Shown here: in pieces, positions 23,223-29,310 of the stretch
Position numbering within the stretch: position 1 is the first letter of the stretch
Layout of the letters: every line of letters begins with the position of its first letter
DNA from: an uncultured Oscillibacter sp.
GTDB lineage: Bacteria > Bacillota > Clostridia > Oscillospirales > Oscillospiraceae
DNA length: 44,412 nt
Assembly (NCBI GenBank): GCA_905234565.1
Contig: CAJOHW010000018.1
Span: 1 to 44,412, forward strand
Direction: 5' to 3'
Translations under genes and position numbers: made by a program
Notes under the pieces: generated by a model
The model's input: the letters and a program-made list of their open reading frames with translations, nothing else
Databases searched by the model: none
What the model was told of the DNA's origin: nothing

Positions 23223-23373
23223 TAGTCTGATGTCCGTCATTCGTCATATTGTCTGACAAATGGGACTGCCTTTTGTGCAAAAGGGAGAACGGGAAAAAAT
23301 TTGGCAAACCCCCTTGACTTTGTCCGACAAACGGCATATACTCCAAACTGTCCTAAGTCCTATGTCAGACTAA
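23223..23373. promoter_or_regulatory. Array of four GTCTGAC-type operator sites (GntR/FadR-like)
   Basis: Two perfect 5-1-5 palindromes, TTGTCTGACAA (23249-23259) and TTGTCCGACAA (23320-23330), are joined by two weaker copies, TAGTCTGATGT (23223-23233) and on the minus strand TAGTCTGACAT (within 23361-23373). The second palindrome lies exactly between the -35 and -10 boxes. The pattern T-x-GT-N3-AC-x-A is typical of FadR-subfamily GntR repressors. A further dyad CTTTTG-TG-CAAAAG lies at 23270-23283. No regulator gene is in the window. Confidence 0.7.
23314..23342 (+). promoter_or_regulatory. Sigma-A promoter of the chimeric transketolase/ketopantoate reductase ORF
   Basis: TTGACT (23314-23319) and TATACT (23337-23342) are separated by 17 bp. 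The leader to ATG 23454 is about 105 nt and contains the last operator-like site. Confidence 0.85.
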
Positions 23374-23453
23374 TGCGGGGCGAACCAACCCCCTATCCAT
23401 CCGGCGGATCCCGCAAAGCCCTATCCCCGCAAATCTATTCAGAGGTGATTCCC

Positions 23454-24782
23454 ATGAAAGACATCTCCATCCAGGAACTCCAAAACACCGCCACAAAGAT
23501 GCGCATGAAGGTCGTGGATATGATCTACAAGGCGCAGTCCGGACATCCCGGCGGCTCCCTGTCCGCGGCGGACTTCGTCACCGCCTGTTACTTCAAGTAC
23601 ATGAACGTGGATCCCCAGAACCCCCGCTGGCCGGACCGGGACCGCATGGTCCTCTCCAAGGGCCATGTGTGCCCCATCCAGTACGCCTGCCTTGCCACCG
23701 TGGGCTTCTTCCCGGAGGCGGAACTGGATACCCTCCGCAAGGAGGGCTCCAAGCTCCAGGGCCACCAGGCCATTGAGGACATGGGCATTCTGCGGACCAT
23801 CCCCAACATCGCCGTGATCATGCCCGCCGATTACAACTCCGCCCGGAAACTGGTTCATCAGGCCGGGGTCACGGAGGGCCCGGTGTACCTCCGCTTTACC
23901 CGGGACGCGGTGCCCCAGATCTACGGCCCCGAGGTGGAATTCACCATCGGCAAGGCCCACCAGATCCAGGACGGCAAAGACGTGGCCATTATCGCCAACG
24001 GCGACACGGTGCGTCTGGCGGTAGAGGCGGCGAAGGAACTGGCCGCCCAGGGCCTGTCCGCCCGGGTGCTGGATATGCACACCATTAAACCCTTAGACGT
24101 GGAGGCCGTGACCGCCTGCGTCAACGACATCGGCAAGATCATCACCATGGAGGACCACAACATCCTGAACGGCCTGGGCAACTATGACGAGATCGCAAAA
24201 GTCGTGCCGGAGGAACAGATCATCGTGGGCAACACCGCCTTTGGAGCTACGCCTGTGTCTCCCGGACACGTGAAGCACACGGGCTACGGCGTCACCAATA
24301 TGGGCACGTTGAAGGCTCCCATGGCGAAGGTAGAGGCCGCCGCCGAGGCCTTCCGGGCGGTGGGCTTAGACGTGACGGTCCATGAGAACGTCATGAACGC
24401 CATTTGGCACAAGCTGCTGGTGAATTCCGCCATCAACGGCATGAGCGCCCTGCTGGAAACCCCCAACGGCTTTGTGGCCAAGAACCAGTACGCCCATGAG
24501 GTGGCCCGGATGCTGGTGGAAGAGGGCCTGAAAGTGGCCAACGCCTGCGGCTGTACCCTGGACCCGGACGAGGAGATGGCCCACGTCTATGAGGTGTCCC
24601 GGGACACGGACGCCACCATCAGCTCCATGGTGCAGGACGTGATCCACCACCACGAGACGGAGATCCGGATCATCAACGGCGCGGTGTGCCGCTATGGCCG
24701 GGAACACGGCATCCCCACGCCGTGCAACGATCTGCTGGTGCAGCTGGTGCTGGCGAAACAGTCCATCTATTTAGGGAAGTAA
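23454..24782 (+). pseudogene. Tripartite in-frame chimera: transketolase N-subunit, transketolase C-subunit and ketopantoate reductase fragments
   Basis: The frame of 442 codons has a good site (AGAGGTGA) before ATG 23454 but joins parts of three proteins. Residues 1-104 are the start of a split transketolase N-terminal subunit (SGHPGGSLSAADF, RDRMVLSKGH, KLQGH). Residues of about 105-242 are the middle of a transketolase C-terminal subunit (HQAIEDMGILRTIPN, IMPADY, YLRFTRD, DMHTIKPLD, EDHNILNGLG). Residues 239-442 are the C-terminal two thirds of a 2-dehydropantoate 2-reductase (NGLGN, IVGNTAFGA, WHKLLVNSAINGMSAL). Missing are the GDGE thiamine site, the catalytic Glu domain and the NADPH Rossmann domain, so none of the activities is expected. 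The second junction falls at an NGLG motif natural to both parents. It may be a real double deletion or an assembly error. An upstream in-frame extension to 23301 is not used because it overlaps the promoter. Confidence 0.85.
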
Positions 24783-27313: not shown

Positions 27314-28954
<1,641 letters not shown>

Positions 28955-28969
28955 TTACAAGCTTGCGGT

Positions 28970-29310
<341 letters not shown>

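Follow-up and report, generated by a model that had tools for sequence, protein, structure and literature searches.

An open chimeric frame of transketolase and ketopantoate reductase fragments in an Oscillibacter genome, probably a recent deletion relic

Introduction

Deletion pseudogenes and chimeric relics that arise between short direct repeats are a known kind of event in bacteria. The locus described here shares with them that fragments of adjacent genes are joined at short repeats and that catalytic parts are missing, but it differs in that the reading frame stays open through both joins and shows no visible point decay. A second point of comparison is the 2-dehydropantoate 2-reductase family (TIGR00745, ApbA/ApbA_C), of which the locus keeps the whole C-terminal domain, whereas the NADP-binding N-terminal part of approximately 114 residues is absent. 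The closest counterpart is an intact unit accompanied by a TRAP transporter, which is present in the genomes G019 (locus L024), G009 (L025), G003 (L026) and G071 (L057) and in Oscillibacter sp. ER4 (L074). The three genes, their order and the promoter region are the same there, whereas the genes are complete and separate and no fusion occurs. A literature search for an operon of TRAP transporter, transketolase and ketopantoate reductase, or for its substrate, yielded nothing among the papers listed; an apulose or sulfosugar role of the module was considered and is not claimed. Of the papers listed on chimeric genes arising at short direct repeats none was to the point, and those listed on in-frame deletion and codon periodicity dealt, by their titles, with editing or disease.

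The window, i.e., the whole stretch of DNA that was analysed, is the complete contig C18 with a length of 44,412 bases. The genome to which it belongs is a draft with a size of 1.99 Mb, 74 contigs and a completeness of 95.78%. We regard the chimeric frame found in it as probably being a recent deletion relic of a transcription unit composed of tktN, tktC and a panE-like gene.

Results and Discussion

Composition of the chimeric frame and its junctions

The frame is uninterrupted and made of three gene fragments (Table 1): residues 1 to approximately 103 come from the N subunit of a split transketolase, residues 121 to 259 (approximately) from its C subunit, and the C-terminal 204 residues from a PanE-like ketopantoate reductase. 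The respective Pfam domains follow one another in this order: Transketolase_N (ORF residues 11-108, profile positions 4-102 of 334), Transket_pyr (101-154, profile 118-173 of 174), Transketolase_C (166-253, profile 1-86 of 124), ApbA (237-286, profile 99-148 of 150) and ApbA_C (312-436, profile 1-125 of 125, E-value 5.7e-35); TIGR00745 is matched over profile positions 101-302 of 305. Aligned with G019, the pieces correspond to residues 1-104 of tktN (90% identity), 121-260 of tktC (90%) and 115-318 of pan (96%), and identity to the counterparts in G019, G009, G003 and G071 amounts to 87-97%. The order of the domains and the G019 alignment bear out the first-pass annotation, which had described one frame of 442 codons that changes its identity twice. 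The ATG at 23454 aligns with the tktN starts of the relatives; an alternative frame of 493 amino acids, starting from TTG at 23301, would begin inside the conserved promoter region. A single-sequence structure model of the fusion was uninformative (mean pLDDT 35.0).

Table 1. Coordinates of the chimeric frame, its parts and associated features (positions in the window unless another locus is given).
Feature	Position	Strand	Basis
Kept promoter region with TTGTCTGACAA palindrome (23249), -35 TTGACT, TTGTCCGACAA palindrome (23320), -10 TATACT and ATGTCAGAC half site (23362)	23249..23370	+	Motif scan; relatives
Whole chimeric ORF	23454..24782	+	Open frame, 442 codons
5' fragment, split-transketolase N-subunit gene (residues 1-103)	23454..23762	+	Pfam; 90% identity to G019 tktN 1-104
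Middle fragment, split-transketolase C-subunit gene (relatives' residues 121-260)	23763..24182	+	Pfam; 90% identity to G019
3' fragment, PanE-like ketopantoate reductase gene: end of NADP domain and whole ApbA_C	24168..24782	+	Pfam; 96% identity to G019, 204 residues
Junction 1 (J1), short shared sequence of ~5-6 nt, CCACC/GCCACC	~23761..23766	+	Judged from relatives' tktN/tktC codons
Junction 2 (J2) on AACGGCCTGGGCA, NGLG codons common to tktC and panE-like gene	24168..24180	+	Relatives' sequences, repeat listing
dctM with in-frame deletion and 17-N run	L117:7369-8265 (own C17)		DNA/protein comparison with relatives

Alignment of each segment to its family had been proposed for defining the breakpoints; the refined junctions are the short intervals of Table 1, and the positions 23766 and 24174 given in the first-pass annotation lie within them. 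At J1 the tktN sequence ending in CTCCAGGGCCACC passes into tktC at CACCAGGCCATTGAG, with approximately 903 nt missing in G019 coordinates; at J2 approximately 590 nt are missing in the same coordinates. The 12-mer that had been named for the NGLG region was correct. The lengths of both repeats are read from the parent genes of the relatives. In G003 tktC and pan share a 13-nt version of the J2 repeat, AACGGTCTGGGCA, which is tied for the longest repeat between them; the longest tktC/pan repeat of G019 and G009 is a version of 11 nt. In G071 the J2 repeat does not rank among the top six tktC/pan repeats. The J1 repeat is short and ranks outside the six longest tktN/tktC repeats in all four of these relatives, which is a point against the relic.

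The intact parent unit in related genomes

Five genomes of the same genus (G019, G009, G003, G004 and G071) carry tktN, tktC and the panE-like gene side by side, each as a complete gene of its own. The parent gene order, which had been supposed to form a plausible operon, is thereby confirmed in relatives. Likewise, the middle and last segments, for which membership in one known protein family had been considered, are separate genes in all five relatives read. In G068 the gene set is divided between two contigs, and the contigs of G025 and G024 stop inside tktC. An apparent fusion of tktC and pan in G003, an open frame of 662 residues, was rejected: two separate genes (frames of 316 and 345) are present there together with a long antisense frame.

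The neighbourhood of the unit varies. Genes for the TRAP transporter components dctP and dctM share a contig with it in G019, G009, G071 and G004; those of G009 run divergently to tktN instead of lying upstream of it, and the contig of G003 begins within dctM. A GntR gene stands beside the unit in G019, G071 (truncated by the contig end), G068 and G004, and was not found in the stretches of G009 and G003 that were searched. Against NCBIfam, tktN and tktC of G019 match transketolase models and the regulator matches GntR-type models, all below the model cut-offs; these are exceeded by the reductase (TIGR00745) and by the binding protein (DctP models). In the window's genome the TRAP genes are found on contig C17, the GntR homologue on C29 and the chimeric frame on C18, where it is flanked by NhaC-like and TrmO-like genes. 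These two names, as well as that of the DctQ-like gene mentioned below, are putative and assigned from the sequences themselves. In G003, G009 and G071 the NhaC-like and TrmO-like neighbours lie on contigs other than that of the unit.

Intact parents in sister genomes and fragments in the parental order support the relic. Two deletions between short direct repeats (J1 approximately 5-6 nt, J2 13 nt) would have cut three genes into one frame. From the N subunit the ThDP-binding part would be lost, from the C subunit residues 1-120 together with approximately 50 at the end, and from the reductase the half that binds NADP. We infer that the deletions are present in the living genome and were made by slippage or end joining at the repeats.

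Lost catalytic parts and kept promoter

The first-pass annotation had held known activities to be unlikely since catalytic parts were missing, and indeed none of the three enzymes retains its catalytic parts in the ORF. The match to tktN ends at residue 104-108, so that the stretch GDGESQEGEIWEAAN, which follows parent residue 140 and which we take to be the ThDP/Mg-binding motif GDG...N of the relatives' tktN, is absent. From the C subunit, tktC residues 1-120 and those beyond approximately 260 are missing. This includes the NVGIAEQN region, presumably the catalytic-Glu region of the pyrimidine domain in the relatives' tktC, and leaves Transketolase_C incomplete (1-86 of 124). The reductase lacks pan residues 1-114; its match to ApbA and TIGR00745 starts at profile position 99-101, and GFVGCGAI, in the relatives presumably the N-terminal GxGxxG NADP-binding motif, is absent. 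The substrate-binding C-terminal domain ApbA_C is complete. To judge from these losses, the fusion should make neither a working transketolase nor a working reductase.

Upstream of the frame the promoter described before as well kept is in fact conserved: positions 23306-23370 are 84% identical to the sequence upstream of tktN in G019 and 88% identical to that in G003, and palindromes related to those of the relic stand before tktN in G019, G009, G003, G071 and L074. The hexamers are arranged as TTGACT-17-TATACT, with the TTGTCCGACAA palindrome between them. The relic would still be transcribed from this promoter, and the palindromes are likely the operator of a GntR-type regulator. A scan of 392,027 bases of the organism's own sequence gave 15 occurrences of the motif, and besides the promoter the window has it at three further positions. 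The TTGTCNGACAA palindromes lie around a strong -35/-10 pair (window 23249-23370) and are shared with the relatives' tktN promoters.

A further deletion in dctM and the question of assembly

The gene dctM, encoding the membrane subunit of the TRAP transporter, is also broken in the window's genome, unlike in G019, G009, G071 and L074, where it is complete. On C17 residues 19-261 (95% identity) and 380-427 (90%) of the G019 protein are combined in one frame of 298 residues, and the break is likewise seen in DNA comparisons with G003, G009 and G071. The join lies on GTGGGCGTG, a repeat of 8-9 nt near C17:32112-32120, and approximately 372 nt (approximately 124 codons) are lost in frame. GTGGGCGTG overlaps the 10-nt repeat CCGTGGGCGT, located at dctM residues 255 and 379 in G009 and G071; in G019 a repeat of this type is not among the top eight of dctM. 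A third deletion of the same kind would thus have removed this part of dctM. Taken together, the deletions in dctM and in the enzyme genes would leave both ends of a module of importer and enzymes broken in this genome. The genes dctP, the DctQ-like gene and the GntR homologue are intact. The GntR homologue (L174, C29:14214-14972) is 69% identical to that of G019, which is below the values for dctP (92%) and dctM (95%).

For a screen for large internal deletions, 22 of the organism's own stretches (the window, L117 and 20 others) were compared with loci of the relatives, using non-overlapping ORFs that matched a relative over at least 80 amino acids with at least 55% identity. Of 75 such ORFs, the fusion and dctM, which belong to one functional module, were the only two with a deletion of this kind; the screen is a partial sample, depends on the relative loci compared and includes L117, which was chosen because dctM looked broken. 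Four candidates had been obtained in all, and two of them, at window positions 23442-24092 and 28353-29300 (the latter opposite groEL/groES), were dropped as antisense frames and not sense genes.

As an alternative, the organism may possess intact tktN, tktC, panE-like and dctM genes, and contig ends may have been joined at short overlaps during assembly with the intervening sequence dropped. We consider such an artefact the main rival to the relic, though a rather unlikely one. The draft consists of 74 contigs, and in 25 of the organism's own loci there are six N runs resembling scaffold gaps, none of which lies in the window. One of them, of 17 N, is situated near the start of dctM, approximately 700 nt from the join, where the relatives have 38 nt. 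Such gaps speak against the relic in that the module may be badly assembled, and the N run within dctM shows that assembly was not clean there. Moreover, three anomalies come together in one module without point decay. Searches of the assembly failed to recover the missing pieces, which agrees with the relic and would equally be explained by short contigs left unbinned. A query of 292 residues covering the missing tktN end and tktC start detected in the own assembly only two loci, a paralogous split transketolase (52%) on C26 and a transketolase of full length on C4. These were also the only two places in this assembly where Transketolase_C extended beyond position 86, and the first 114 residues of the reductase had no match there at E<=1, in a search run without a positive control. 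Against an artefact stands the size of the losses: the two of the six N runs that could be checked against relatives deviate by 9 and 21 nt, whereas approximately 370-900 nt are missing at the joins. In addition, the affected stretches are located on different contigs (C17 and C18) and nevertheless belong to one module, and the 73 other matched ORFs show no deletion. Assembly k-mers are usually longer than the 5-13 nt shared at the joins.

Codon phase, selection and the meaning of the open frame

A frame which stays open over gene fragments resembles a new fused protein, and this calls for caution. We counted how many maximal exact repeats between different genes are in the same codon phase. 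Between the operon genes of four relatives 9252 of 15672 repeats of 5 nt were in phase, 3168 of 4786 of 6 nt, 1796 of 2349 of at least 7 nt, 213 of 249 of at least 9 nt and all 22 of at least 11 nt; these four operons are related and the counts thus not independent. Six genes of the organism itself gave similar figures, with 9453/15399 (5 nt), 3171/4607 (6 nt), 1741/2237 (at least 7 nt), 236/263 (at least 9 nt) and 26/30 (at least 11 nt). The fusion was left out of this count, being homologous to two of the others, and its inclusion changes little (80 versus 78% for at least 7 nt). The in-phase share thus amounts to approximately 60-70% at 5-6 nt and to 85-90% at 9 nt or more. The product of the shares for joins of approximately 5-6, 8-9 and 13 nt puts the chance of three in-frame joins at roughly one half. 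The in-frame joins are no sign of function, because most repeats that coding genes share by chance preserve the codon phase, which is probably also why the frame of the relic remains open. In GC-rich genomes deletions at short repeats between coding genes will often yield open chimeras by default, since the majority of such repeats keep the phase.

Pairwise dN/dS values between the pieces of the window and the four relatives range from 0.014 to 0.097. Comparing values to the clade of the relatives with those within it, we obtained 0.051 versus 0.018 for tktN, 0.072 versus 0.050 for tktC and 0.021 versus 0.041 for pan; the intact outgroups L074 and L072 likewise lie above the within-clade values. 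Measured as dN to the outgroup ER4 (L074), change in the pieces of this genome is not raised for tktN (0.052 versus 0.055-0.064 in the relatives), pan (0.130 versus 0.136-0.146) and dctM (0.071 versus 0.081-0.087 in three relatives) and slightly raised for tktC (0.118 versus 0.096-0.100). Little or no excess change in the kept pieces indicates that the deletions are recent, or that they are artefactual, or that the frame is still under selection. For the relic, three large deletions with no nonsense or frameshift mutation and almost no excess substitution are an odd order of decay.

According to the last of these options, the 442 residues would be a new fused protein under selection, folding around ApbA_C and the transketolase pieces and having a binding or regulatory role under a GntR-type promoter. 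The frame without stops, the kept promoter with its operator-like palindromes and the low dN/dS in all three pieces, together with the complete ApbA_C, would agree with this; the intact dctP, DctQ-like gene and GntR homologue and the promoter elements also fit a frame still in use. However, low dN/dS would equally result from the time when the genes were still separate, the in-frame joins can be expected from the repeat phase, each of the three enzymes has lost its catalytic parts and dctM of the same module is broken too. We thus judge a selected fusion protein to be very improbable. The more specific idea that the chimera is expressed from the GntR-regulated promoter and was recruited after transporter loss as a non-enzymatic protein, e.g., a ligand sensor or decoy based on ApbA_C, appears more doubtful still.

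The first-pass annotation had left relic, new fusion and artefact side by side; the evidence favours the relic, and the functional fusion is the weakest of the three. Overall we favour a recently broken catabolic module, an event of an ordinary kind, however misleading its appearance. The module of TRAP transporter, transketolase and PanE-like reductase is apparently being lost in one species and kept by its neighbours.

Distribution of the fusion and of the module

The fusion had been suggested as a query for other genomes, and protein searches showed it in no other genome examined. In a search with the whole ORF against 60 genomes, only the organism's own match covers residues 1-442 among the matches listed, and among those listed for residues 91-273 in 86 genomes of the genus, only the own one spans the whole query. 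None of the matches in 49 loci from named genomes runs through residues 85-122 or 215-262. The exact peptide pattern of J1 was present in one of 400 family genomes, which is the own genome, and had no match in viral contigs. This distribution, too, argues against a selected fusion protein; the genome collections searched hold one genome per species, and the window's species is represented by a single one. Among named records, the closest matches to the pieces of the fusion are metagenome-assembled genomes titled Oscillibacter, several of them from goat reticulum or sheep rumen.

Loci titled Mogibacterium, in which query residues 1-441 were matched within approximately 1 kb, were considered as a second occurrence of the fusion and rejected: tblastn on 13 loci gives separate matches. 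In one of them, L077, the genes are intact and separate in the order pan-tktN-tktC-dctP. A set of TRAP transporter, transketolase and PanE-like genes is thus also found in other Clostridia (L077, L080 and similar loci), with a different gene order.
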